DNA of 11,495 nucleotides from a bacterium (GTDB taxonomy: Bacteria; T1Sed10-126): positions 1 to 11,495 of the forward strand of contig PWHN01000006.1 of the NCBI GenBank assembly GCA_003554945.1, written 5' to 3'. Position numbers and translations under genes: made by a program. Positions 1-11,495 of the stretch are shown here, piece by piece (the stretch's first letter is position 1; the number at the start of each line of letters is the position of its first letter). Below the pieces are notes generated by a model. It did not search any database. It saw nothing but the letters and a program-made list of their open reading frames with translations, and had not been told where the DNA came from.

Positions 1-4
1 ATAG

Positions 5-40
5 CTGGCAATAGATCCTGGAGGATCTGATTATTGCCAG
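5..40. repeat. Interrupted hairpin at left edge
   Basis: The arms CTGGCAATA (5-13) and TATTGCCAG (32-40) are perfect inverted complements. Inside them GATCC (14-18) pairs with GGATC (23-27), leaving a TGGA loop and a TGAT bulge. No T-run follows, so it does not look like a standard intrinsic terminator. Its role is unknown; it may be an end structure of a mobile element or the tail of a gene lying outside the window. Confidence 0.5.
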
Positions 41-54
41 ATATACCTCGGACC

Positions 55-124
55 GAGCACTCAATAAAACATATGAAAGCAAATTTTGACATCTGTTACT
101 TCTTACGCTTTAAATTGAGTGCTC
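55..124. repeat. 70-bp segment bounded by 11-bp inverted repeats
   Basis: GAGCACTCAAT at 55-65 and ATTGAGTGCTC at 114-124 are perfect inverted complements separated by 48 AT-rich bases. Such an arrangement could be the terminal repeats of a miniature element, or nested ends beside the transposase-like remnant on the minus strand. No target-site duplication is evident. The inverted repeat is directly visible; the mobile-element reading is inference. Confidence 0.45.
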
Positions 125-264
125 AGAAGAATGAGTCTCAACACTTTTGAGTAGCCTGTCTTCAGCAAGGATTTCAACAGAACCTCTTGACCTAACATTG
201 TTAATTTTTTCTTGGCCTTCCAGTATAATACTTGTGCTGGCGTTTGATTCAAGTGTTTGTGTCC
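103..264 (-). pseudogene. Possible C-terminal remnant of a DDE transposase/integrase
   Basis: On the minus strand an open frame ends at a TAA (complement of 103-105). Its readable tail includes LNQTPAQVLYWKAKKK followed by a basic, leucine-rich end (LLKTGYSKVLRLILLSTQFKA). The TPAQVLY stretch recalls the TPxEVY-type tail after the catalytic core of rve-family transposases, but the match is short and was judged by eye. No start codon or catalytic residues are present, and upstream the frame runs straight into the REP-like hairpin at 275-296, so any original gene has been cut there. It could equally be chance open frame. Confidence 0.28.
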
Positions 265-274
265 GCTGCCCGAA

Positions 275-296
275 GTCACGGCGGGCTTGACCCGCC
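275..296. repeat. REP-like half element
   Basis: GTCACG followed by the perfect hairpin GGCGGG (280-285), loop CTTGA, CCCGCC (291-296). It has the same GTCA...GGGCTTGACCC organisation as the left half of the paired elements at 3780-3877, 8383-8476 and 10414-10508, but lacks their AATCCA end and partner hairpin. It abuts the heptameric array that starts at 299. Confidence 0.6.
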
Positions 297-298
297 GG

Positions 299-420
299 TT
301 TTCAGTTATCAGTTACCAGTTTATAGTTACCAGTTACCAGTTTTCAGTTTAAAAAGTTAATCCGCAGCGAGGTTTATTGGTTTGAATTTAGGTTTCAACC
401 TGAAACTAAAAACTAAAAAC
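299..420. repeat. Heptameric repeat element, copy 1 (inverted relative to copy 2)
   Basis: Bases 299-350 are a 7-bp tandem array; read on the minus strand the units are AACTGAA, AACTGGT, AACTGGT, AACTATA, AACTGGT, AACTGAT, AACTGAA. Bases 351-420 form a non-tandem flank which, reverse-complemented, matches the flank of the copy at 6887-7034 over about 70 bases, including shared blocks such as GTTGAAACCTAA, CAATAAACCTCG and TTAACTTTTTAAACTG. Together this is one dispersed element present twice in opposite orientation. Degenerate heptameric tandem repeats are known from several bacterial groups, notably cyanobacteria; that says nothing about the host here. Confidence 0.8.
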
Positions 421-497
421 GAACTTTAAGATTTTACGGTTCAAGAAGTTAACCCACAATCTGTGTCCGGGATGATGTAGGAAAGGAAGTTACTATT

Positions 498-1301
498 ATG
501 GGACGAGATTACAAAAATATTGTTGAGCCTTCCGACGAATTAAATGCTCTCGTAAAAGGAGTGGCTCATGAAATTAACAATCCGCTCGTCGCTATTCGCG
601 GCAATGTCCGCAATATTGAACTCTTTTTGGAAAAAATGAAGCCGCTACTGGAGGATTATGCCGCTGAAAAACCTGATCTGAAGGTGGGGCAGTTTGAACT
701 GGGGGAGGCCCTGATCAGGCTTGACCGCTGTATGCAGGGAATCAAGACCTCCCTGGCGCGCGTCGAGGGAATGGTGGATGACTTCGATAGTTTTGCCGGT
801 ATTGGCAACATTAAAACCACTGTTCTTGATTTGGCTGAAGTGGTAACTGAAGCCTATAATATGAACGAGAGTCTTGTGGACAGCTTTGGTTCCCTGGAAC
901 TTATTATTGAGGCAGAGGAACCAATACATATAGAGGGCAATAAACTTCAACTTGAACAGGCGATCAACAACCTCATAAAGAACGCTTATCAGGCGATTGA
1001 GGATAAAAGCAACCAGGACGAATCTTTTATCGGTCGTGTGGTTGTTACCGTGGAAGACGTTATCCGTGACGGTCAAGAGTGGGTAAAAGTTATCGTTTTT
1101 GACAACGGTCCCGGGGTGCCGGAGGAGTTACGGGAAAAAATATTTATGCCATTCATCTCTACTAAACCACAGGGTCGAGGCCGGGGGATTGGCTTGCCCC
1201 ACGTCCGGGGTATTGCAATTGAACATGGAGGCCGGCTCTATCTGGTTGATGATTCTGATGAAGGAGCTACTTTTATTCTGGAATTACCCCGGGCAAGTTA
1301 A
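498..1301 (+). CDS. Sensorless cytosolic histidine kinase (HisKA-HATPase)
   Basis: A 267-residue protein consisting only of a kinase core. The H-box GVAHEINNPL puts the phosphoacceptor at H24, only 20 residues from the start, so there is no room for a sensor domain; no membrane segment or signal peptide is seen. The ATPase part carries the N-box (N158 and N162 in NNLIKNAYQAI), the G1 box FDNGPGVP (D202) and a lid/G2 region. The last reads GRGRGIGL at 226-233 where most family members have GxGTGLGL, so Arg replaces the usual Thr. The ATG at 498 is preceded by AGGAAAGGA about 10 bases upstream, and an in-frame stop at 450 rules out a much longer product. It probably receives its signal through a partner, autophosphorylates with ATP and passes phosphate to an Asp in a receiver, plausibly one of the five encoded downstream. 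The kinase assignment is firm; the partner is unknown. Confidence 0.93.
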   Translation: MGRDYKNIVEPSDELNALVKGVAHEINNPLVAIRGNVRNIELFLEKMKPLLEDYAAEKPDLKVGQFELGEALIRLDRCMQGIKTSLARVEGMVDDFDSFAGIGNIKTTVLDLAEVVTEAYNMNESLVDSFGSLELIIEAEEPIHIEGNKLQLEQAINNLIKNAYQAIEDKSNQDESFIGRVVVTVEDVIRDGQEWVKVIVFDNGPGVPEELREKIFMPFISTKPQGRGRGIGLPHVRGIAIEHGGRLYLVDDSDEGATFILELPRAS

Positions 1302-1433
1302 ATAAGTACATCCCTGGTATGAGCGCTTCTGGGGTCGGTTAATTCGTCGCTTTTGTGAACCAAATGGTCTACTTAAATCTTTTCTGAAAAGCTTTCCCCG
1401 GTTCTTTCATTCCAGGGAAAGGGTTAAACATCT
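1302..1433. other. Spacer without a recognisable gene
   Basis: The only structure noted is the inverted repeat CTTTCCC (1392-1398) and GGGAAAG (1415-1421) with a 16-base loop and no T-run. A roughly 50-codon open frame runs from a stop at 1303 to 1470 but ends by reading through the GC-rich palindrome, lacks a start with a Shine-Dalgarno sequence and is not called. Confidence 0.5.
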
Positions 1434-1550
1434 CCTCCCCCTTGAGGGGGGAGGATTAAGGTGGGGGTGAAGAGGCCTCGTAGAGGCCGAACAACGGTTG
1501 TGACGTTTTATCCACCTCACCCTGGCCCTCTCCCTCCAGGGGAGAGGAGA
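1434..1550. repeat. Composite of GC-rich palindromes in inverted orientation
   Basis: Three hairpins lie in sequence: CCTCCCCC with GGGGGAGG (1434-1454), GGCCTC/GAGGCC with loop GTA (1474-1488), and CTCTCCC with GGGAGAG (1528-1546). The two outer ones belong to one family in opposite orientation: the first continues as GATTAAGGTGGGGGTGA, the last is preceded by its approximate complement TCCACCTCACCCTGGCC. The reverse complement of 1528-1558 also resembles 8228-8260, including the stretch AAAAAGTCTCC. No gene lies here. The hairpins may attenuate or insulate transcription between the first two kinase genes, but no T-run marks a terminator. Confidence 0.7.
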
Positions 1551-1567
1551 CTTTTTGGAGCAGCACT

Positions 1568-1594
1568 AACTAAGATGAAACTAAGATGAAGGAG
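1568..1594 (+). promoter_or_regulatory. 11-bp tandem duplication and RBS for the TTG-started kinase gene
   Basis: AACTAAGATGA occurs twice head to tail (1568-1578, 1579-1589) and is followed at once by the Shine-Dalgarno AAGGAG (1589-1594), 10 bases before the TTG at 1605. This ribosome binding site decides the start: the first in-frame ATG (1641) has no comparable sequence before it. Confidence 0.65.
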
Positions 1595-1604
1595 TAGAAC
1601 TTTA

Positions 1605-3683
1605 TTGGCTAAGAGAACCAGTTTGTGTTTGGACGCACTTATGTCTAACACCCAGAATGATGGGGATTTTATTGAGCAGCTAATCAATGCTATGCCACTT
1701 CCCGTATATTTTAAGGACACTGACTTGAAATACCGGGGCTGTAATGAAGCGTTTGAGAAGATAACTGGCTATAAAAAAAATGAATTAATTGGCAAACAGG
1801 ATCGTAAAATCTTCAAATTCGAAATGGCACGTGAACTTGAACACCGGGATAAAAAACTTCTTGAATATCCCGGTGAACAAGTATTTGAATACCGCCTCGA
1901 ACCTCGCTGTGGATTTGACCGCGAAGTTATTTTCCATAAAACTTTAATTGAAGATCGACAGGGTAATCCGACAGGAATAGTTGGCGTGTTAAAAGATGTC
2001 ACCGAGCAAAAGCAGGCCCGTCAACGGCTGGAAGAGATAAATCGCTGTTTTCTTAATTTTACCCCTGATCCGCAGGAAAATATAGAAAGCCTGGTTCGAG
2101 TCGCCGGTGAATTACTCAATGCCTCAGCCTCTCTCTATGTTAAACAAGTTGATGAAGACGTCAGAATGGATGCTACCTGGAATTTGCCTGAACAGCTTGG
2201 GTTTAACTGTCCCCAGCTCATAAAAATTAGCAAACGGCTTCTTTCTCAAAGTGAAACTCAAAAGGTAAAAATTAATTTTTTGGAAGATAACCACTGTCCG
2301 GCCTGCGGCTCTGACTGTTCCGGCTTTGTTACCTCTGTCTCGCAATTGATTAAAACTGACCATTTTGCCGGCGTTCTATTTGTTCTTCATAATCGCACTT
2401 TTGAACTATCTCCCGCCGAGCGTAAATTGTTAGGTGTAATTGCCTCGGCAATCGCGGTTGAGGAGAACCGTCGCCAGTCGGAAGAAGAGCTAAGGCGTGT
2501 GGAGAGTTTACGCCGCGCCCTGGAAGAGAGTGAGAAACGATTCCGGCAGATGACCGAACGGGTTGACGGAGTATTTTTACTTTTTAGAGGTGTTTTTGAA
2601 GAAATCCTTTACGCTAATTCTAAATATGCTGAGGTCTTCGACCGTTCTTCTGAAAAGCTTCGTGATGATCCTGAAGATTTTCTGAATCGAATTTCACCCG
2701 ACCACCGCGGCGGGCTCGAAAGATCAATCAAAATTACCAGACAGGGTGTCCCGGCATCTATTGTTGTTGAAACTACTGATAACCCGGAAAAGAAGTGGTT
2801 GGATTTTCGGTTTTCTCCCGTAGTTGGCGAAGATGGAGACATAAGTAGTGTTGTTGTCCTCGTGCAGGACGTTACTGATCGAGAAGAAGCCCGTCGTCAG
2901 CTTGCCGCGGCCCACGAGGAGTTGAAGGAAAAAACGGGTCAGATCGTTCAAAACGAAAAGATGACAGCCCTGGGCGAGTTGACGGCCAGTGTTGCTCACG
3001 AGCTTAACCAACCGCTTAACGTTATAAAAATAATTGCTCAGTCGCTTTTGCGAAATATTGGTCAAATTAACGCTGACGAAGAATTAAAAGAAGACCTTCA
3101 GGATATTGTCGGCCAGGTCAATAAAATGGCTGAAATTATCGATCACATGCGTGTTTTCAGCCGCAAGTCAGCCGGCGAAAAAAAAGATAACGTTGATTTA
3201 AATGAGCTTTTTGAAGGTGTGTTTAAGTTTGTTGGTCAGCAGCTTGAAAATCATCGTATCGAGGTGAAAAAAGATCTTGCCGGGGATCTGGCTAATGTTG
3301 CCGGCGATCCGATTCGAATCGAACAGATTTTTATGAATTTGATAACTAATGCACGCAACGTGCTCGACGACGTTGATCAGCAGGAAAAAACAATAATTGT
3401 TCGCACTTATAACCTCGAACAAAATAAGTCGCCATTGCATGTTAACTCCGTTGTTGCCGAGGTGGAGGACAACGGCCCTGGCGTACCCGAGGATATTCGT
3501 GATAAAATTTTTGAACCCTTCTTTACGACCCGGGAGCCAGGCAAGGGCACCGGTCTTGGCCTCTCTGTTGCCTCGGAGGTTATCGAAGAGCACGACGGAA
3601 AAATGGAACTTGAAACTGAAAAGGGGGAATACTCGCTTTTTCGCGTAATTCTCCCCGCACAATCACGCGATGCTGTTGATTGA
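1605..3683 (+). CDS. Cytosolic sensor histidine kinase, PAS-GAF-PAS-HisKA-HATPase
   Basis: A 692-residue kinase with no membrane segment. Domains in order: PAS (about 17-133, ending in DVTEQKQ), GAF (about 145-286, beginning INRCFLNFTPDPQENIESL), a short coil, PAS (about 312-425, ending in QDVTDREEARRQL), HisKA with H465 in the H-box [12 protein letters not shown], and HATPase_c (N578/N582 in the N-box, D622 in EDNGPGVP, GKGTGLGL from about 646). All catalytic motifs are intact. The GAF domain contains HCPACGSDC, with C231, C234 and C238 next to H230, a spacing that could bind metal or respond to redox; this is inference. The TTG start at 1605 is chosen for its AAGGAG; ATG 1641 would remove 12 residues before the first PAS. 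Genes lie on both sides in the same direction, with gaps of 303 and 323 bp that hold repeats. It lacks its own receiver, so phosphate probably goes to a separate REC protein such as those starting at 4007, 5242 or 7052. Confidence 0.93.
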   Translation: MAKRTSLCLDALMSNTQNDGDFIEQLINAMPLPVYFKDTDLKYRGCNEAFEKITGYKKNELIGKQDRKIFKFEMARELEHRDKKLLEYPGEQVFEYRLEPRCGFDREVIFHKTLIEDRQGNPTGIVGVLKDVTEQKQARQRLEEINRCFLNFTPDPQENIESLVRVAGELLNASASLYVKQVDEDVRMDATWNLPEQLGFNCPQLIKISKRLLSQSETQKVKINFLEDNHCPACGSDCSGFVTSVSQLIKTDHFAGVLFVLHNRTFELSPAERKLLGVIASAIAVEENRRQSEEELRRVESLRRALEESEKRFRQMTERVDGVFLLFRGVFEEILYANSKYAEVFDRSSEKLRDDPEDFLNRISPDHRGGLERSIKITRQGVPASIVVETTDNPEKKWLDFRFSPVVGEDGDISSVVVLVQDVTDREEARRQLAAAHEELKEKTGQIVQNEKMTALGELTASVAHELNQPLNVIKIIAQSLLRNIGQINADEELKEDLQDIVGQVNKMAEIIDHMRVFSRKSAGEKKDNVDLNELFEGVFKFVGQQLENHRIEVKKDLAGDLANVAGDPIRIEQIFMNLITNARNVLDDVDQQEKTIIVRTYNLEQNKSPLHVNSVVAEVEDNGPGVPEDIRDKIFEPFFTTREPGKGTGLGLSVASEVIEEHDGKMELETEKGEYSLFRVILPAQSRDAVD

Positions 3684-3779
3684 TATCCTTTTTTTATATA
3701 TTGGACACGGAGTAAATCTGTGCCCTGATGTATTAATGGATTCTGTGTCGATTGCTCGAAATCGACAACGGCATCGGTC
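3684..3779. other. Short spacer before the REP pair
   Basis: No gene is seen. The only structure noted is TCGATT (3748-3753) with AATCGA (3760-3765), a short inverted repeat. The open frame from 3670 to 3876 overlaps the kinase stop and then translates the repeat, so it is not called. Confidence 0.4.
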
Positions 3780-3877
3780 GTCATTGTCCGGCTTGACCGG
3801 CCAATCCAGTGGCTTTGGCGTTGACCTTAGATCTATTAAATTCAAAGTCGCTGGATTCCCGTTTGCACGGGAATGAC
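3780..3877. repeat. Paired REP-like palindromes (BIME-like), copy 1
   Basis: A 98-bp element with GTCATT at one end and its complement AATGAC at the other. The left palindrome is CCGG-CTTGA-CCGG, ending in AATCCA; the right opens with TGGATT and holds CCCGT-TTGCA-CGGG. The two face each other across a spacer containing TCTATTAAATTCAA. The copies at 8383-8476 and 10414-10508 share this plan and the spacer (TCTAAAATTCAA), but this one has diverged clearly more. Such elements are usually mobilised by REP-associated transposases; none is in the window. Confidence 0.75.
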
Positions 3878-4006
3878 ATTCAAGACCTCACGGTCGTCGT
3901 TATCGGAATATCATTTGTTCCCAGAATGAGATAATATGATGCCGCCTTCATCTTTGACACATCTGTAACCATAACTCTGGGAGAGCATATCAAACTAAAT
4001 TTCACG
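3878..4006. other. Leader of the REC-REC gene pair; no convincing promoter
   Basis: TAATAT (3932-3937) and TTGACA (3954-3959) each resemble one half of a sigma-70 promoter, but neither has a suitable partner at normal spacing. GGAGAG (3980-3985) is purine-rich but sits 21 bases from the GTG at 4007, so it is a poor ribosome binding site. Confidence 0.3.
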
Positions 4007-5245
4007 GTGATTAAATTGACAAACACAGACAAGCTATCCGTTCTGATAGTAGAAGATGAAGCGTTAGCGCGCCAACAACTGGCCAAGTTTGTCCGTCGAC
4101 AGGGCTATGTAGTAATCGAGGCCTGCAACGGGAAAGAGGGCTGGGAAAAGTTTCAAGAAGAGGCACCTTCAGTTGTTATCAGCGACATCAAGATGCCTGA
4201 ATTGGACGGGATGCAACTCCTTAAAAAAATTCACGACACCGACCCGGAAGTACAATTTGTAGTTGTTACTGCCTACGGCACCACCGATACGGTTATCAAA
4301 GCAATTCGAGAGGGAGCGATTGATTTTATTAAAAAACCAATTGACCTGGATCAACTTTCTCTCGCCCTCGGTCGGGCAGAAAATAAACTTCAGCAGCAGT
4401 CGGAGTTTACCTCATATCCAACTATTCTACTGGCCGAAGACGAAGAAACTACTCGCAGCCAGTTGGCTTCTGTGCTCGAGGAGGAACCCTGGGAAGTTTT
4501 AACTGCTAAAGATGGTATCGAAGCACTCTCCATATTTCGCGATCAAAAAGTTGATATTGTTCTGCTTGACATTAGAATGCCGGAACAATCGGGTCTTGAA
4601 TCTCTGCGAGAAATGACTGCGATCACTGATGATTTTGAAGCTGTCATATTAACCGGCTACGGCGACGAGGACAACGCCACTGAAGCGCTGCGTATGGGAG
4701 CCAATAATTTCTTGCGCAAGCCTATTGATCTGGACCAGCTCATTGTTGCCATCAAAAAAGCGCTGGAACAGCTCAACACTGAGCGAGCTCTCCGTTACCG
4801 CACCCGCGAATTAGAGCTTACCAGGGAAATTATCGCACGTATCACTCGTGAAAAGGAAGTTATTATTGATGCTCGCGATCAGACTCAGCCCGCGGCCCGT
4901 CAGTTTGCACAGCGGCTTATTGACACCGTTCCCGGTGGAGTAGTAGTAGTTGATAAGGATTTAAACCTTGTCTATATCAATAATAACCTCAAGGAAGTGG
5001 CAGAAAAGCTGCCGGAACGGTTGAATGAAGAATTTATAAGTAGCTGGCAAAAGCTTGGCGTCAAGGGACTTGATTACGATGCTTTTTTAGAAACCGTCCG
5101 CGAACACTTCAAGACTGCGCCCGGCGAAGTTCAGTCTGTAAAAGCGGGAGAATACGCACACATTTATCTCATAACAGTTAAGGTTTTGACTGAACAGGGC
5201 GAGAGTAAACACGTTATCATAACCCTGCGTGGTGAAAGAAAATGA
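4007..5245 (+). CDS. Double-receiver protein with PAS-like C-terminus, REC-REC-PAS
   Basis: A 412-residue cytosolic protein. REC1 (about 10-128) has the acidic pair E16-D17, phosphoacceptor D60 in ISDIKMPELDG, T88 and K110 in KKP. REC2 (about 138-257) has E144-D145, D188 in LLDIRMPEQSG, T216 and K238 in RKP, so both look competent for phosphorylation. A helical linker (about 258-295) leads to a PAS-like region (about 298-405; DTVPGGVVVVDKDLNLVYIN). There is no kinase, DNA-binding or enzymatic output domain, so it may be a phosphate sink, a scaffold or a regulator of its neighbour. Its first 280 or so residues resemble the next protein, including the linker (GRAENKLQQQ versus [10 protein letters not shown]). 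The GTG at 4007 is used, with only a weak RBS; TTG 4016 would remove three residues. Its stop overlaps the next start (ATGA), so the two are translationally coupled. Confidence 0.9.
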   Translation: MIKLTNTDKLSVLIVEDEALARQQLAKFVRRQGYVVIEACNGKEGWEKFQEEAPSVVISDIKMPELDGMQLLKKIHDTDPEVQFVVVTAYGTTDTVIKAIREGAIDFIKKPIDLDQLSLALGRAENKLQQQSEFTSYPTILLAEDEETTRSQLASVLEEEPWEVLTAKDGIEALSIFRDQKVDIVLLDIRMPEQSGLESLREMTAITDDFEAVILTGYGDEDNATEALRMGANNFLRKPIDLDQLIVAIKKALEQLNTERALRYRTRELELTREIIARITREKEVIIDARDQTQPAARQFAQRLIDTVPGGVVVVDKDLNLVYINNNLKEVAEKLPERLNEEFISSWQKLGVKGLDYDAFLETVREHFKTAPGEVQSVKAGEYAHIYLITVKVLTEQGESKHVIITLRGERK

Positions 5246-6864
5246 GTGCCCCACAAAAATCTGTATTAATTGTTGACGATGACCAGGTTATCCGTGAACA
5301 ATTAGGGGAAAAACTGCGTCGAAACTATTTTGAAATCTACCTGGCTTCCAACGGCGAGGAGGCGCTTGAGCTTTTTGAAAAGTCTCATATTGATATTATT
5401 TTACTTGACATAAAATTACCGGACATGGATGGGCTTGAAGTTCTGCGCCAGGTGAAAGAAAACAATCCTAACTGCCAGGTTGTGGTGATGACCGGTTACG
5501 GAAGCCAGGACCTTGCCATACAATCTCTGCGCAGCGGGGCTATTGATTATATTGAAAAACCGCTTGATATGGAGCAGTTCAAGGCCTCAATTGGACGCGC
5601 CGAAGAAAAAATATCGCAGCAGGAAGAACTATCTTTCCGAGAAACTATCCTGATCGTGGACGATGAACCAGACGTTGTTAAACAGCTTAAGCGAGTGCTG
5701 GAGCGTGAAGGATATGAGGTCTTTGGGGCTACCAGCGGTTCAGAAGGGATTTCACTGGCCGAAAAGAATAAAGTCGAAGTGGTCGTGGTTGACTACCGGC
5801 TTGGTGATATGACTGGTCTGGAGGTCTTCAAACGGATTCGCGAGTTCTACGACGATATTGAAGGTATTGTCATTACCGGCCATGGAAAACAGGGGATCGC
5901 CGTTAAAGCTCTGCGAGTCGGTGCTCTTGATTATTTAACCAAGCCTTTGAATCTCGAAGAATTATTGTTTTCGGTTGAAAATGCTATTGAACGTATCAAC
6001 CTCAAGCGAAATCGTCTTTACCGCCAGCGGGAACTGGTAATTACTTCAGAAATCAAAGAAAAGATGAATCGTGAACTGGAACAGAAGGTCGAGGAGAGAA
6101 CAAAAGAACTTAAAAAAACGGAAGCTGAGCTTTTTCAGACCTCAAAGCTGGCTACCCTGGGTGAGATGTCGGCTGGATTGGCTCATGAGCTAAACCAGCC
6201 GCTCGGAGGTATTGAACTTGCCGCCGAACATTTGCGCAAGTTGAAAGAAAGAGACAGGCTCGACGAGGAGGCCCTGGAGTCCGCTCTGCAGGATATTGAA
6301 GCTTCAGTTGACAGGATGTCCAGCGTTTTAAAGCACGTGCGTACCTTTGCTCGCCAGGATACGTTGGAGTTTCTGGAGGTGGAGATAAACGAGACGATTG
6401 AAAATGCTCTGGAGCTTCTGGGCCAGCAGTTGCGTCTGCATGAGATTGAGCTGGTTAGAAATTTTAACGATAATTTGCCCAAAATAGAGGGGGCTCCGTA
6501 TCAACTTGAACAGGTCTGGATCAATATGATCTCCAATGCCCGTGATGCGCTCGATGAAGCGGAAAGAGAAAAAAATCTGAAAAAACGACTTGAAATCGAG
6601 ACCGACCTATTAGCTGAAAATAAAGGGGTTGTGGTTCGCTTCAAGGATAACGGCATTGGAATCCCGGAGCCGGCTCTTGAGAAAATTTTTGAGCCTTTCT
6701 TTACCACAAAAGAAGTAGGCGAGGCGACCGGGCTCGGCCTGGCTATTAGCTACGGAATAATTGAGGAACACGAGGGGGATATTGAGATTGAGAGCACCCC
6801 GGGGGATGGAACTACAGTTTCGGTGCTGCTTCCCCTTGAACAAGAAGATAAGAGTAAAATATGA
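5242..6864 (+). CDS. Hybrid kinase with two N-terminal receivers, REC-REC-HisKA-HATPase
   Basis: A 540-residue cytosolic protein. REC1 (about 6-124) shows D12/D13, D56 in [12 protein letters not shown]84 and K106; REC2 (about 134-252) shows D140/D141, D184 in [12 protein letters not shown]212 and K234. A coiled signalling helix (about 255-298, with [10 protein letters not shown]) joins them to HisKA, whose H-box [12 protein letters not shown] gives H315. HATPase_c follows: N428/N432, D469 in KDNGIGIP, and GEATGLGL at 493-500. All catalytic residues are present. Receivers placed before the kinase suggest that phosphorylation elsewhere switches this kinase, the reverse of the commoner C-terminal receiver hybrid. 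The ATG lies inside the previous gene's stop (4-base overlap), implying co-translation and probably interaction. Its kinase core resembles that of the 1605-3683 product (shared HELNQPL, DNGxGxP and PFFTT), suggesting gene duplication. The final phosphate acceptor cannot be told from sequence. Confidence 0.94.
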
Positions 6865-6886
6865 AACCGTAGTTGCGAGAAAGGTC

Positions 6887-7034
6887 GTTTTTAGTTTCCA
6901 GTTGAAACCTAACTTCAAAGCAATAAACCTCGTTACGGGTTAACTTTTTAAACTGGAAACTGGCAACTATAAACTGGAAACTGGCAACTGATAACTATAA
7001 ACTGGCAACTATAAACTGGTAACTGGTAACTAAC
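6887..7034. repeat. Heptameric repeat element, copy 2
   Basis: Bases 6951-7034 are twelve uninterrupted 7-bp units with consensus AACTNNN; the last three positions alternate mainly among GGA, GGC, GGT, ATA and GAT. Bases 6887-6950 are the flank that matches the reverse complement of 351-420. The array has five more units than copy 1 at 299-350, so unit number has changed since they separated. It fills nearly the whole gap between two kinase genes and stops 3 bases before the Shine-Dalgarno of the next one. Confidence 0.85.
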
Positions 7035-7037
7035 TTC

Positions 7038-7043
7038 AGGAGG
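7038..7043 (+). promoter_or_regulatory. Strong RBS fixing a TTG start
   Basis: AGGAGG lies 8 bases before the TTG at 7052. An in-frame TAA at 7031-7033 closes the frame upstream and no ATG lies between, so this site establishes TTG as the start codon. Confidence 0.8.
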
Positions 7044-7051
7044 TTGACCAA

Positions 7052-8182
7052 TTGGCTAAAATACTGGTAATTGACGACGAGGAGATTATCAGGCGTCGTA
7101 TTTGTGATTTATTAGAACTTGATGAGTTTACTCCTCTTGCTGCCGCGGATGGAAAAACCGGTCTGGAAATATTCAAAGATGAAAATCCAGCAGTGGTATT
7201 ATTGGATTTAAAGATGCCCGGAATTGATGGGCTTGAAGTACTGGACGAAATAAAAAAGGTTTCTCCCACAACCGAAGTAATAATTATTACCGGTCACGGC
7301 GGGGTGGAAGCTGCAATACAGGCCCTAAGACGGGACGCTTTCAGCTATATCCAGAAACCACTCGAGTATGATGAGCTGGAGATCGAGATTCAGCGTGCTC
7401 TTGAAAAACAGCAGTTGCGCCAGAAACTGGCTCAGTCGGAGAAGATGGCCGCCGTCGGTGAAATGGCCGCCGGGATTATGCATAGCATCAACAACCCCAA
7501 CGCCTTTATAAGTGGGAACGTCGATTTTTTAAAGAAGGTCTGGGAGAGACACGAAACTGACCTCCAGCAGGTTCTCAATGATTCGGTTGCTGATGAACTT
7601 CCGCGGGCAATTGATGCAATAGCAACGGGTAGTGAGCGTATAAAAACAATCGTTCAAAAAATAAAGCTTTTTTCTCGCCGTAAATTTGCGCCCGGCCGTC
7701 AGGAAAGATTTGATCTCCGTAAAATTTTCCGCGACGCCGCTAATATTGTTTCACAATCAAACAGTGATCAGGCTGAGGAAATTTTAAACCTGGATCTTCC
7801 TGCCAGAAAAGATGAGTCTGAGGAAAGATTTGAAGTATACGGCGATTCCAGCGAATTTCAGGAAATGATTGCAAATTTACTTGAAAATGCATTGGATGCG
7901 GTTGAGGATCAAGCCGAGCCCGAAGTTAATTGTTCTATTGAGTTCGATTCCGGTGAGATACAATTGAATGTGATTGATAACGGTTGTGGTATACCGCCGG
8001 ATATCCAGGAGAAAATTTTTGATCCATTTTTTACTACCAAACCGACCAGCCAGGGCACCGGGCTTGGCATGTCAATTGTCCAGGGGATAGCTGACCGCGC
8101 CGGTGGTGAAATTGAAGTTGATTCTGAGCCCGGCGAAGGGACGAAAATAACTTTATCTGTTCCTTCCGCTGCCTCTAAATAA
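7052..8182 (+). CDS. Hybrid kinase REC-HisKA-HATPase with an HSINNP H-box
   Basis: A 376-residue cytosolic protein. The N-terminal receiver (about 2-119) has D8/D9, D52 in LLDLKMPGIDG, T80 and K102, and connects by a short helix (EKQQLRQKLAQSEKMAAVGE) to the kinase. The H-box reads GIMHSINNPN with H144: Ser145 stands where most family members have Glu directly after the His. That acidic residue is usually needed for efficient phosphotransfer or phosphatase action, so activity may be altered. The HATPase part is complete: N275/N279, D309 in IDNGCGIPPD, and GTGLGM at 335-340. No sensor domain is present, so the receiver is the only visible input and the protein probably acts in the middle of a relay. 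The TTG start is supported by AGGAGG. It lies 187 bp after the coupled REC-REC pair and may share their transcript. No terminator is evident after its stop. Confidence 0.93.
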   Translation: MAKILVIDDEEIIRRRICDLLELDEFTPLAAADGKTGLEIFKDENPAVVLLDLKMPGIDGLEVLDEIKKVSPTTEVIIITGHGGVEAAIQALRRDAFSYIQKPLEYDELEIEIQRALEKQQLRQKLAQSEKMAAVGEMAAGIMHSINNPNAFISGNVDFLKKVWERHETDLQQVLNDSVADELPRAIDAIATGSERIKTIVQKIKLFSRRKFAPGRQERFDLRKIFRDAANIVSQSNSDQAEEILNLDLPARKDESEERFEVYGDSSEFQEMIANLLENALDAVEDQAEPEVNCSIEFDSGEIQLNVIDNGCGIPPDIQEKIFDPFFTTKPTSQGTGLGMSIVQGIADRAGGEIEVDSEPGEGTKITLSVPSAASK

Positions 8183-8227
8183 CTGCGCGTAACGTTGAGA
8201 ACATCAAGCAACTATACTGAGTCCACT

Positions 8228-8276
8228 TCAAAAAGTCTCCCCTCCCCTGGAGGGAGGGGATTAAGGGGAGGGGAGA
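8228..8276. repeat. GC-rich palindrome, CTCCCC family
   Basis: TCCCCTCCC (8238-8246) pairs perfectly with GGGAGGGGA (8252-8260) around the loop CTGGA, followed by TTAAGGGGAGGGGAG. With its AAAAAGTCTCC lead it resembles the reverse complement of 1528-1558. It follows the REC-kinase gene by about 50 bp, but no T-run makes it a typical terminator. Confidence 0.7.
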
Positions 8277-8284
8277 ATTAATTC

Positions 8285-8318
8285 AGCTAAAGGCTAAAAG
8301 CCAAAAGCCGAAAGCTAA
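8285..8318. repeat. Short degenerate AGCTAAA/AAAAGCC repeat
   Basis: Successive blocks AGCTAAAGGC, TAAAAGCC, AAAAGCCG and AAAGCTAA give an approximate 8-9-bp periodicity. Its origin and function are unknown; it is one tile in the mosaic filling 8183-8657. Confidence 0.5.
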
Positions 8319-8382
8319 TTCAAATTTATCAAGTTCTCATAATCTTGTTCATGTTCTTGATTTTGAACTTGATTTAACGTTC

Positions 8383-8476
8383 GTCATTGCGGGCTTGACC
8401 CGCAATCCATCTTTACGGGTTTGAACTATACCTATCTAAAATTCAACATGGATTCCGGCTCGGAGGCCGGAATGAC
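8383..8476. repeat. Paired REP-like palindromes, copy 2
   Basis: A 94-bp element: GTCATT, a GCGGG-CTTGA-CCCGC hairpin, AATCCA, a spacer with GAACTATACCTATCTAAAAT, TGGATT, a CCGG-CTCGGAGG-CCGG hairpin, and AATGAC. From the AATCCA end to the last base it appears identical to the copy at 10414-10508; only the first hairpin differs. This points to recent spread or gene conversion. Confidence 0.85.
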
Positions 8477-8522
8477 AACCAAAAGTTCTGTTTTTGAGCT
8501 TGATTTATATTTTTGACCTTGA

Positions 8523-8590
8523 TCTTACGCCCCGCGCCCTGCTCCCGAGATTCCGGATCGCGCTCTCTGCGGTCGCTTGCCCGGAATGAC
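8523..8590. repeat. CGCCC-rich tile followed by a REP-like half element
   Basis: Bases 8523-8548 (CTTACGCCCCGCGCCCTG...) match 10749-10774 closely. They are followed by ATTCCGG (8550-8556) and CCGGAAT (8581-8587) with GAC, which has the right-half organisation of the paired elements but a 24-base loop. No gene or clear promoter is seen in the remaining bases up to 8657. Confidence 0.5.
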
Positions 8591-8657
8591 AAACTAAGTG
8601 GCATTGAATAAGTACAAGCTAAACAGTTACTTCAAAACTTAACTGAGGTTTTTAATT

Positions 8658-10289
8658 ATGATTAAAATTAATTGGGACCGTAATTTTTGTGCACAGATCA
8701 TTATTACGGTTCTGCTTGTCGCTGTTGTGATGACTGTTTACCAGTTTGTTCGTATTATGACTATGAGCTATTTTCCTTTCATTGATCCCATGTTATCTGG
8801 TCTGATGACTGTATCTTTTTCAGCCCTGGCCGCCGGCGTAGTCGCCTTTTTTGTTCTCCGTCGACGAGAACAATTGTATCAATCGCTTGAGCTTGGCGAA
8901 GCGGAGCTGCAGGCCTTTGCTCAATCTCTTCCCGATCTTGCCTTTGTTTTTGATGAGGAAGGGTATTATGAAAAAATATATACTGCCCGTGACGAGTTAC
9001 TCTTTCTGCCCCGGGAGGACTTAATCGATCAGCGGGTGGACGAGGTTCTGCCTGATCCGGTGGGGAAACAATTGTTTAACTGCGTTAAAAGAGCAGTGGC
9101 AGATAACAGAATGGTACATATTGAATATGTGCTTGTGATTGACGGTACAAAGCGTTATTTCGATGCCCGGTTGTCACCTTTTCAGTGTCGTGACCTGACT
9201 TATGTTTCCTGTGTAACCCGGGACATAACTGAGCGCCGCCGGATTGAAAAACGGTTGCGTAGTGCTAACGAGTCATTAAAGAAACTTACCGAGAGATTAA
9301 GCCGCTTTGAAGATATATTCCAACATATTGAAGACCCTGTCATGCTGCAGGATCGTGACGGAAAATTTGTATTGGCCAATGAAGCTGTCTCCCGTTTTGC
9401 AGGATATCCCCCTGCAGATCTGCTGGGGGAGGACGAATTTTTCTTTATGGATGAAGAATCAGCGGCTCGTGTCAGTGAGAAAAAACAACAGGTGGTGGAA
9501 GCTGAAGAACCGGTAAAATATGAAATTTCTCCGGATTTACCCGGGGAAAAAGATGTACATTTTTCTACCCTGCGCTACCCTTATTATGATAAAAATGGTG
9601 AGCTATTTGGAACAATTGCTATCTGTCGTAATATCACTGAACGCAAAAGAATGGAAAGACAATTACGCCAGGCCGTGCGGGAAAAGGAAACTTTACTAAA
9701 AGAGCTCCATCACCGGGTGAAGAATAATCTCCAGGTCATATCAAGTCTCCTGCGTCTGCAAAAGTATCAAGTTGAAGATCAGGCCTCGCCAGAAGTTCTG
9801 GAGGCTTTTGAATCCAGCCGCAAGCGTGTCCTGGCCATGGCTGAAGTGCACGAACAAATTTATCAAGTCGAAAAGTTGGATGCAATTGATGCTTCCGGTT
9901 ATTTGCGTAAATTAGCTGATATGGTTGTTAAAGGATTTGATGTTACCGGTAGCCTTAAGTTGAACTACAGCATCGAAGAAGACCTTGAACTTGAGGTCGA
10001 TCAGGCGATCCACTGTGGTTTGATTGTAAATGAGCTGCTCACCAATGCAGTTCAGCACGGTTCTGAATCGGGCAGGGATGATTTTAATATTCATCTGTCT
10101 ATGAAAAAAACAGACGGAGGTTATACCCTGGTAGTAGCTGATAACGGGGTTGGATTACCCCCGGACTTCGATCTTGCAGAATCAGATTCGCTTGGACTAC
10201 AGCTTGTTCAGGCATTAGTCGAGGATCAACTCGCCGGCTCCCTGAAAATAGACTCCACCGACGGCACTAAATTTATTATCAATTTTTAG
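8658..10289 (+). CDS. Membrane-anchored sensor kinase, 2TM-PAS-PAS-HisKA_2-HATPase
   Basis: A 543-residue protein with two hydrophobic segments (about 10-31 and 45-67) joined by a loop of only about 13 residues, so it is anchored in the inner membrane but has almost no periplasmic sensor. Two cytosolic PAS domains follow: about 80-190, ending RDITERRR, and 217-330, ending RNITERKR. The kinase is of the HisKA_2 type rather than HisKA: LLKELHHRVKNNLQVISSLL at about 346-365, with H351-H352; by comparison with the HWE/HisKA_2 families H352 is the likely phosphoacceptor. The ATPase part has N458 and N463 in NELLTNAVQHG, D495 in ADNGVGLP, and a SLGLQL lid. HisKA_2 kinases normally phosphorylate stand-alone receivers, so one of the REC proteins upstream could be its target. 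The ATG at 8658 has GAGG about 9 bases before it. It is separated from the previous gene by 475 bp of repeats and may be transcribed independently. Confidence 0.93.
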   Translation: MIKINWDRNFCAQIIITVLLVAVVMTVYQFVRIMTMSYFPFIDPMLSGLMTVSFSALAAGVVAFFVLRRREQLYQSLELGEAELQAFAQSLPDLAFVFDEEGYYEKIYTARDELLFLPREDLIDQRVDEVLPDPVGKQLFNCVKRAVADNRMVHIEYVLVIDGTKRYFDARLSPFQCRDLTYVSCVTRDITERRRIEKRLRSANESLKKLTERLSRFEDIFQHIEDPVMLQDRDGKFVLANEAVSRFAGYPPADLLGEDEFFFMDEESAARVSEKKQQVVEAEEPVKYEISPDLPGEKDVHFSTLRYPYYDKNGELFGTIAICRNITERKRMERQLRQAVREKETLLKELHHRVKNNLQVISSLLRLQKYQVEDQASPEVLEAFESSRKRVLAMAEVHEQIYQVEKLDAIDASGYLRKLADMVVKGFDVTGSLKLNYSIEEDLELEVDQAIHCGLIVNELLTNAVQHGSESGRDDFNIHLSMKKTDGGYTLVVADNGVGLPPDFDLAESDSLGLQLVQALVEDQLAGSLKIDSTDGTKFIINF

Positions 10290-10310
10290 CTCTAAAATTT
10301 TCATTCCACC

Positions 10311-10394
10311 GTCATTTTGACCTTTGACTCGCAATCCATCTTTTCACCCCCCTTTGTTTTTCCCCCCCTCAAGGGGGGGAAAAGAAAGGGGGGG
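10311..10394. repeat. REP-like half element plus long poly-C/poly-G hairpin
   Basis: GTCATT...GCAATCCAT (10311-10339) is a left half of the paired element with a decayed hairpin. It is followed by an inverted repeat whose arms (10347-10368 and 10373-10394) pair along nearly their full length: CCCCCC, TTT, T-run and seven C against seven G, A-run, AAA and G-run, with loop TCAA and one irregular position. The lack of a 3' T-run argues against a simple terminator for the kinase gene ending at 10289, though the stem could still stabilise or end its transcript. Confidence 0.6.
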
Positions 10395-10413
10395 AGGTCT
10401 TGACCTGAAGTTC

Positions 10414-10508
10414 GTCATTGCGGACCACGATCCGCAATCCATCTTTACGGGTTTGAACTATACCTATCTAAAATTCAACATGGATTCCGGCTCGGAGGCC
10501 GGAATGAC
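10414..10508. repeat. Paired REP-like palindromes, copy 3
   Basis: Same plan as copies 1 and 2. The first palindrome is GCGGA-CCACGA-TCCGC, whereas copy 2 has GCGGG-CTTGA-CCCGC: both arms differ in step, so pairing is preserved. The rest matches copy 2 base for base as read by eye. It lies 125 bp after the membrane kinase gene. Confidence 0.85.
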
Positions 10509-10541
10509 GTCAAATTCAGGAGCGAACTTGATCTAACGCTC

Positions 10542-10604
10542 GTCATTGCAGATTTTGCTCCCGATTTATCTCCTCTCCCCTCCGAGGGAGAGGACACAGG
10601 TGAG
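10542..10604. repeat. REP-like half element and CTCTCCC palindrome
   Basis: GTCATTGCAG...CCCGATT (10542-10566) is a decayed left half element. It is followed by CCTCTCCC (10572-10579) pairing with GGGAGAGG (10586-10593) and then ACACAGGTGAGGGG, the same order of parts as the element at 1434-1470. Confidence 0.6.
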
Positions 10605-10621
10605 GGGGGAAGTTGCTTTTG

Positions 10622-10845
10622 ACCTTCCTTAGCGTCTTTGCGCCTTTGCGTTTTCCGAACTTGATCTTGATTTCCCCGAACTTTCGCCCCCTCGCCCCGA
10701 CGCCCCACCGCCCTATCGTGAATTACCCCCGGCTCGTCCTTTGAGAACTTACGCCACGCGCCCTGCGCCCAGCGCCCCGCGAACTTTCCCCCTTCGCCCC
10801 AGCGCCCGCTCGCCTCATCGAGTTCTCCCCTCCGTCGAGGGGAAA
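10622..10845. repeat. Low-complexity CGCCC-rich mosaic without a gene
   Basis: The stretch contains TTAGCGTCTTTGCGCCTTTG (near 10629-10648) and two similar tiles beginning CGAACTTTC and running into C-rich CGCCCC blocks (10677-10712, 10780-10814). A third block at 10749-10774 matches 8523-8548. Near 10827-10842 lies a decayed CCCCT/AGGGG palindrome. No start codon with a ribosome binding site and no protein-like frame is seen on either strand. Confidence 0.5.
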
Positions 10846-10874
10846 AGAGGTATCAATACGCCTCAAAAAAATCC

Positions 10875-10903
10875 TTGACATAAATTAGAAAACAACGTAT
10901 CAT
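10875..10903 (+). promoter_or_regulatory. Near-consensus sigma-70 promoter
   Basis: TTGACA (10875-10880) and TATCAT (10898-10903) are separated by exactly 17 bases in an AT-rich stretch that contrasts with the C-rich repeats before it. Transcription would begin near 10910, about 50 bases before the TTG at 10960. It is the best promoter in the window and suggests that the last gene is transcribed independently of the kinase cluster. Confidence 0.65.
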
Positions 10904-10959
10904 AAATACCTCATCTTAGCGAGCAACAGCCCGCCAACCACACGAGGGGGGTTTTTGGG

Positions 10960-11495
10960 TTGAAAATTGATGTTGAGCAAATCGACCTTCAAAGTAACGA
11001 AATGCTTTCCGTTCTTGACGAAATTCCTTTATTAATATGCATCTTTGTTCCCGGCGGACAGGTAAAATATGTAAATGTTCCTTATTGTGATTTTTTCGAC
11101 TGTGATCGCAGTGACTTAATTGGGGCCAGCTTCTTTGATCTTATTCCTGAGTTTGACGGGGGGCTTGACGAGCAGGATGTAAGGGAAATAAAGCATAACG
11201 GCGGCCAATTAGTTCATGAACACAGTTTTACAACTGAAGACGGAAACGAACGCTACCAGCGGTGGACGATTAAGCTTCAGCGTGACTCTAATGCCGAAGT
11301 TCAGTATTACTACGCTATTGGTGAGGACACTACGGAGAAACGAGAACTTGAAAAAGACCTGGAGAATAAAGAACAAGAATACGAGGCCGCCAACCAGCAG
11401 TTAGACGCCCAGAACCAGCAGTTGGAGGCCCAGAATCAACAGCTTGACGCTTACGTCCAGCAACTTGAGGCACAGGAACAGCAGTTGAGAGCTGA
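10960..11495 (+). CDS. PAS domain protein with heptad coiled coil, N-terminal part (cut by window edge)
   Basis: An open frame of 178 codons runs to the last base with no stop. The TTG start at 10960 follows GAGGGGGG (10944-10951) by 8 bases; the frame is closed upstream by a TAA at 10903-10905 and no in-frame ATG lies between. Residues about 12-125 form a PAS domain (MLSVLDEIPLLICIFV near the start, AIGEDTTEKRELEKDL at the end). From about residue 126 the chain becomes a coiled coil, and from 145 it is made of 7-residue repeats with consensus NQQLEAQ, built from 21-bp DNA repeats. Such helices often join a PAS to further PAS, GAF or kinase domains, so this is probably the sensor end of another signalling protein, but the output is outside the window. 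No membrane segment or signal peptide is seen. Given its own promoter, it need not belong to the upstream cluster's operon. Confidence 0.85.
   Translation, partial: MKIDVEQIDLQSNEMLSVLDEIPLLICIFVPGGQVKYVNVPYCDFFDCDRSDLIGASFFDLIPEFDGGLDEQDVREIKHNGGQLVHEHSFTTEDGNERYQRWTIKLQRDSNAEVQYYYAIGEDTTEKRELEKDLENKEQEYEAANQQLDAQNQQLEAQNQQLDAYVQQLEAQEQQLRA
11392..11495 (+). repeat. 21-bp coding repeats (heptad coiled coil)
   Basis: Almost five imperfect 21-bp units encode NQQLDAQ, NQQLEAQ, NQQLDAY, VQQLEAQ and EQQLRA. Third-codon positions differ between units (CAGCAGTTA, CAACAGCTT, CAGCAACTT) while the amino acids are kept, so the array is old and under protein-level selection. The array may continue past the window. 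Confidence 0.8.

Follow-up and report, generated by a model that had tools for sequence, protein, structure and literature searches.

Probable merger of a two-CheA chemosensory locus with a transferable multi-kinase module of swapped output

How can five histidine kinases and five receivers be encoded one after the other on a single strand with no output domain in sight? This question is raised by a stretch of 11,495 nucleotides, hereafter the window, from a bacterium of the lineage T1Sed10-126 (NCBI GenBank assembly GCA_003554945.1, contig PWHN01000006.1, positions 1 to 11,495 of the forward strand), which is one whole contig, called C97 here, out of 121 in a draft genome of 2.2 Mb. An earlier note on the window, made from its letters alone, had read it as a relay that integrates several cytosolic signals and delivers phosphate to an effector encoded elsewhere. 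Here, we report that the window makes up the first half of a signalling locus of 14 genes on one strand, which was split by the assembly inside gene 7, and that in this locus a transferable multi-kinase module with a swapped output has probably been united with a two-CheA chemosensory system. The earlier observation is partly confirmed by this result, and its interpretation partly supported.

Most of the inventory of the window stands as first described. Five HATPase kinase cores lie on the + strand within six open reading frames (ORFs), to which domains were assigned with Pfam. Gene 1 (498..1301, 267 aa) is a HisKA-HATPase kinase core without a recognised sensor domain, and gene 2 (1605..3683, 692 aa) codes for a soluble kinase with the layout PAS-...-PAS-HisKA-HATPase. 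Gene 3 (4007..5245, 412 aa) encodes two receivers (REC) followed by a weak PAS-like C-terminal region, gene 4 (5242..6864, 540 aa) a REC-REC-HisKA-HATPase protein and gene 5 (7052..8182, 376 aa) a REC-HisKA-HATPase protein. The five receivers are found in these three genes, two each in genes 3 and 4 and one in gene 5, and those of genes 4 and 5 are placed N-terminal to the kinase. The H, N, G1 and G2 boxes of the kinases and the D/T/K residues of the receivers are intact, as had been claimed. Gene 6 (8658..10289, 543 aa) encodes a membrane kinase with two predicted transmembrane segments, two PAS domains, HisKA_2 and HATPase. The component list was one gene short, as an ORF on the + strand starting at 10960, gene 7, with a PAS domain and a coiled coil, runs off the contig end at 11495. 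Nor is the locus very compact: only genes 3 and 4 overlap, by 4 bp, whereas the other gaps inside 498-10289 measure 187-475 bp and a further 670 bp precede gene 7, and these gaps hold dispersed repeats.

The place where gene 7 is cut is the key to the missing output. The last 121 bp of C97 (window 11375..11495, + strand) recur without a mismatch at the very start of a second contig, C96, on the same strand, and this stretch is present in these two contigs only, genome-wide. In a control covering exact end overlaps of 37 whole contigs and 85 ends, the maximum was likewise 121 bp and was seen twice (C97/C96 and C20/C24), as is expected for the largest k-mer used by an assembler. The reading frame of gene 7 continues through the join and yields a 571-aa kinase of normal layout (PAS-coil-PAS-coil-HisKA_2-HATPase). 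Its core shares 55% identity with the core of gene 6, which lies just before it. The exact and unique overlap, the in-frame ORF and the similarity to gene 6 together support the join; the assembly probably broke at the repetitive coiled coil of gene 7. The joined locus comprises 14 genes on one strand and 22.9 kb, about 1% of the genome, yet it holds nine of the genome's 27 receivers and 9 of its 28 HATPase matches, a clustering of kinases and receivers far beyond chance.

The second half of the locus, which we call module B, is chemosensory. All of its genes lie on the + strand of C96 and were assigned with Pfam: gene 8, a REC-REC protein (C96 1444-2343, 299 aa); CheA1 (2318-4579, 753 aa); gene 10, a REC-kinase between the two CheAs (4560-5732, 390 aa); gene 11, a single REC (6277-6669, 130 aa); CheA2 (6976-9015, 679 aa); CheW (9778-10365, 195 aa) and a methyl-accepting chemotaxis protein (MCP) of the 4HB_MCP/MCPsignal type (10409 to the contig end, by which it is cut). 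CheA1 and CheA2 each contain HPt, H-kinase_dim, HATPase and CheW domains, and the HPt domains of the locus are found only inside these two proteins. Genes for CheR or CheB were seen neither on C97 nor on C96, which ends within the MCP. In a tree of 286 receivers, the second receiver of gene 8 and that of gene 11 fall together with CheY proteins that adjoin CheA1 in other genomes (support 0.86-0.87), and the first receiver of gene 8 is placed with weak support (0.37).

The statement that the kinases and receivers come without HPt and chemotaxis parts is accurate inside C97, where Pfam detects neither HPt, CheW or MCP nor any output domain, but it fails one contig further on; the missing parts are a contig-edge artefact. 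A relay confined to the window, acting on an unlinked effector and lacking HPt and chemotaxis proteins, has in its favour just this Pfam result on the window alone. Since the contig ends inside gene 7 and C96 brings CheA, HPt, CheW and MCP, such a relay is already largely refuted by the exact, unique overlap, and we give it very little credence. For the same reason, phosphate need not be sent to an effector elsewhere in the genome. The proposed input from several cytosolic signals is incomplete, as gene 6 has its two predicted transmembrane segments and the locus also contains the MCP.

What, then, are the kinases and receivers of the first half? The earlier note had suggested a comparison of gene neighbourhoods, and this was informative: genes 2, 3 and 4 and the receiver of gene 5 recur in the same order in the fusobacterium Ilyobacter polytropus, where an effector gene follows. 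On its plasmid pILYOP01 (NC_014633.1), the four-gene run ILYOP_RS11825-RS15300-RS15305-RS15310 (locus L193, 17654-23406) encodes a PAS-kinase, a REC-REC-x protein, a REC-REC-kinase and a REC-PAS-GGDEF-HD-GYP protein. The first three genes are consecutive on one strand, in the order of window genes 2-4. RS15305 is the closest relative of gene 4 that we found (50% identity over 535 aa), RS15300 matches gene 3 over 402 aa, including the C-terminal part (38%), and RS11825 matches gene 2 over 364 aa (38%; 44% for the histidine kinase cores), but is shorter, with 377 aa compared with 692 aa. The trees agree with these pairings. The counterparts in Ilyobacter are sisters to the first receivers of gene 3 (0.90) and gene 4 (0.988) and to the receiver of gene 5 (0.912) in the receiver tree, and to the cores of gene 2 (0.99) and gene 4 (0.996) in a tree of 137 kinase cores, in which the core of gene 1 has no well supported partner (0.51). 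The Ilyobacter run is annotated merely with 'response regulator', 'ATP-binding protein' and 'HD domain-containing phosphohydrolase', and in the papers searched we found nothing relevant on Ilyobacter kinases, on this four-gene run or on HD-GYP kinase modules in Fusobacteria. Relatives of gene 3 at E<=1e-40 were found in none of 40 other genomes, and a structure prediction for this protein from the single sequence was uninformative, with a mean predicted local distance difference test score (pLDDT) of 39. Judged by domain content and synteny, genes 2-5, hereafter module A, are a conserved set of kinases and receivers, here without an output of its own.

The fourth position of the module is where the two genomes differ. 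In Ilyobacter, the terminal receiver is part of the REC-PAS-GGDEF-HD-GYP effector, whereas here the equivalent receiver is fused to a HisKA-HATPase core. The gene 5 receiver has 56% identity to the RS15310 receiver, compared with 32% to the receiver of gene 10. For the gene 5 kinase core, on the other hand, identity is 44% to gene 10, compared with 30-33% to the cores of genes 1, 2 and 4, and in the kinase-core tree it is the sister of the gene 10 core (0.988). As its receiver is nearest to the Ilyobacter effector receiver and its core nearest to gene 10, gene 5 is, from the alignments and trees, a chimera of the module A terminal receiver and a gene-10-type kinase. The simplest account would be that a gene-10-type kinase took the place of the cyclic di-GMP (c-di-GMP) output, or that the reverse happened in Ilyobacter; two cases give no direction.

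One might also see in the locus a pile-up of local kinase and receiver duplicates without a joint function, some of them decaying. There are indeed paralogous pairs within it (genes 6/7, 5/10 and 3/4), and a genome of the same family, G001, has only 8 receivers and no CheW or MCP match, leaving no neighbourhood to compare. However, the catalytic and phospho-accepting residues are all intact, no pseudogenes are seen and the gene order of module A is kept in another phylum, so that we regard mere duplication as the least credible of the explanations considered here, and as highly improbable. G001 itself has FliM/FliN-type proteins, and apparently a flagellum without a chemosensory system, unless the draft has gaps.

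With moderate confidence, we propose instead that a cytosolic multi-kinase module, in which a kinase has replaced the c-di-GMP output, has merged with the two-CheA chemosensory locus and that the whole works like the CheA3/CheS3 pair of Rhodospirillum centenum. In that bacterium, CheA3 phosphorylates a receiver of the REC-REC kinase CheS3, which shuts off the phosphorylation of CheY3 by CheS3; CheS3 is a PAS and HWE kinase with one phosphorylatable receiver and a second receiver that lacks the Asp (PMC3868531). The sequences show the anatomy of the locus, the contig join, the synteny with Ilyobacter and the gene 5 chimera; each phosphotransfer step, for which we draw on this analogy, and the end point are inferred. 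Module A would be a soluble unit made of the gene 2 PAS kinase, the gene 3 REC-REC protein as adaptor, the gene 4 REC-REC kinase and the terminal receiver of gene 5, and module B a two-CheA core with the CheY-like REC-REC and REC proteins, CheA1, CheA2, CheW, the MCP and the REC-kinase of gene 10. The MCP would set the activity of CheA1 and CheA2 through CheW, and the phosphorylated HPt domains of the CheAs would pass phosphate to the CheY-like receivers encoded by genes 8 and 11. As in CheA3/CheS3, they could also phosphorylate the N-terminal receivers of the REC-kinases encoded by genes 10, 5 and 4 and thereby raise or lower the activity of these kinases, while the PAS kinase of gene 2 might drive the two REC-REC proteins encoded by genes 3 and 4. 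In Ilyobacter, the terminal receiver of module A would drive GGDEF/HD-GYP; here it sits on the gene 5 kinase, so that a further kinase may be what the module acts through. Signalling probably ends at the flagellar switch, reached through the CheY-like receivers, with c-di-GMP as the alternative. The furthest-reaching version, in which the neighbouring two-CheA system supplied the kinase that replaced the c-di-GMP output and both kinds of phospho-signalling, HisKA kinases and CheA arrays, act as a single hierarchy on the flagellar switch, is a tentative suggestion, about which we are more doubtful than convinced.

Several points weigh against the proposed merger and its working. The assembly is a draft, and it is uncertain how many coiled-coil repeats lie at the C97/C96 join because the repetitive coiled coil probably broke the assembly. 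Only a single close relative of module A was found; when named genomes were scanned for the pattern with gene 4, most of the matches listed were generic PAS-kinase/REC-kinase pairs (27-47%), and the second receivers of genes 3 and 4 and of their Ilyobacter counterparts form one group in which the pairs are not resolved. Gene 4 is a HisKA kinase (PF00512) without PAS or HWE and with the Asp present in both receivers, unlike CheS3, and a C-terminal REC is present in CheA3, but was detected by Pfam in neither CheA1 nor CheA2. The gaps of the locus, 142-762 bp with dispersed repeats, argue against a single transcript. Finally, the 41.6 kb of Ilyobacter sequence examined contain no che genes, so cooperation between the two halves is not a necessity. 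The last two points would equally suit two independent neighbours, with genes 1-6 relaying to an effector elsewhere, e.g. an orphan GGDEF or HD-GYP protein, C96 being an ordinary chemotaxis cluster and no phosphate being exchanged between them; GGDEF and HD-GYP proteins are indeed encoded on other contigs of this genome, within the 0.63 Mb examined. Against such independence, the gene 5 core is the sister of the gene 10 core and the paralogous genes 6 and 7 flank the split, a kinship which indicates that the halves exchanged or duplicated parts. We consider two unconnected neighbours unlikely, though far less so than the relay confined to the window or the accumulation of duplicates.

Elsewhere in this genome, a third CheA is encoded on C18, and inspection of translations showed the runs cheR-cheD-cheB-cheW-mcp on C19 and mcp-cheR-cheW-cheB on C117, while FliM/FliN-type proteins are encoded on C113. 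C19 was considered as the continuation of C96 and rejected, as one and the same MCP hairpin, identically oriented, terminates both contigs (96%), which makes C19 a paralogue. The DNA-binding-type receivers seen are four NtrC-like proteins with the sigma-54 AAA motif on C11, C47 and C108, beside other kinases. On C78 (L119, 2817-6764), a gene for a 1315-aa multi-PAS histidine kinase lies between genes for a CheR-like and an Rcp1-like single-receiver protein, and this group is flanked by two MCP genes, a further mixture of kinase and chemosensory genes in this genome. C47 also encodes a PilM-like protein (L095, 2521-5106) with a highly acidic, proline-rich insertion of about 350 residues. Upstream of the window, the last 103 bp of C38 are identical to window 1-103; we tentatively place this contig as the neighbour, as the join falls in a repeat. 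By inspection, C38 carries genes for HTH/RodZ-like, PgsA-like, PgpA-like and DUF47/PhoU-like proteins and a PiT permease, and because these are housekeeping genes, the cluster probably starts with gene 1. The repeat at this 5' contig end (1..130) has related copies at about 20 other places, with about 20 genome copies also counted for the element at 1-52, and a dispersed repeat resembling a miniature inverted-repeat transposable element or a repetitive extragenic palindrome lies between genes 1 and 2 (1418..1573; about 40 full or partial genome copies). Dispersed, partly palindromic repeats of this kind fill window 1-130, 1418-1573, 8220-8620 and 10310-10870, and an Rfam scan of the window gave no match.

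Taken together, the locus is a tangible example of the way in which multi-kinase networks may be built: in a module whose order is kept between a Fusobacterium and a sparsely sampled lineage, the terminal receiver appears to have passed from an effector enzyme to a kinase. It also provides a defined set of proteins with which to ask whether CheA controls HisKA kinases through N-terminal receivers outside the alphaproteobacteria. In addition, it is a caution that the edge of a contig can pass for a 'missing output' when a genome is in draft form.

Among the known systems, the Che3 cluster of R. centenum, which belongs to the alternative-cellular-function (ACF) class (PMC3868531), resembles this locus in that one cluster holds an HPt-CheA, a kinase with two N-terminal receivers and a stand-alone receiver without output, and here gene 4 lies upstream of CheA1 and CheA2 across the contig join. 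The locus differs in having two CheAs and several more kinases and, by its domain content, is not a Che3/ACF member, since the PAS-HWE kinase and the CheA C-terminal receiver, for which we tested, are both missing. In Methylobacterium (L054, L060, L089), a REC-REC-HisKA-HATPase gene is likewise found near MCP and CheA genes, but its product is 27-36% identical to gene 4 among the matches listed, there is a single CheA with a C-terminal REC and a REC-PAS-kinase-REC gene follows. HisKA kinases near CheA were seen in seven further sampled loci (L161, L162, L163, L176, L177, L180, L183), and a run with seven HisKA kinases in no other sampled locus.

Relatives of module B are found in three genomes (G335, G204 and G063; loci L160, L157 and L159), whose clusters contain CheA2-like (45%) and CheA1-like kinases and a CheB-sized REC protein, as well as two CheYs (one detected in L159) and, in L160, a CheW. 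Directly after CheA, they encode HPt-CheW proteins of about 315 aa (L157 10566-11519, L159 10687-11634, L160 10625-11584). Proteins of 312 aa beside relatives of CheA1 were also considered as REC-REC proteins and rejected, as one is CheD-REC by Pfam and the others share its N-terminal sequence; these CheD-REC fusions adjoining CheA (L155 3182-4120, by Pfam; L154 7856-8794 and L156 11060-11998, of the same sequence type) come from three genomes of different families. The clusters of G335, G204 and G063 differ from the locus described here in the HPt-CheW protein after CheA1, in having no interleaved HisKA kinases and in encoding their CheYs as separate genes. The two receivers of gene 8 find their best matches in these two separate CheYs (38-47%), and gene 8 looks like a fusion of the two.

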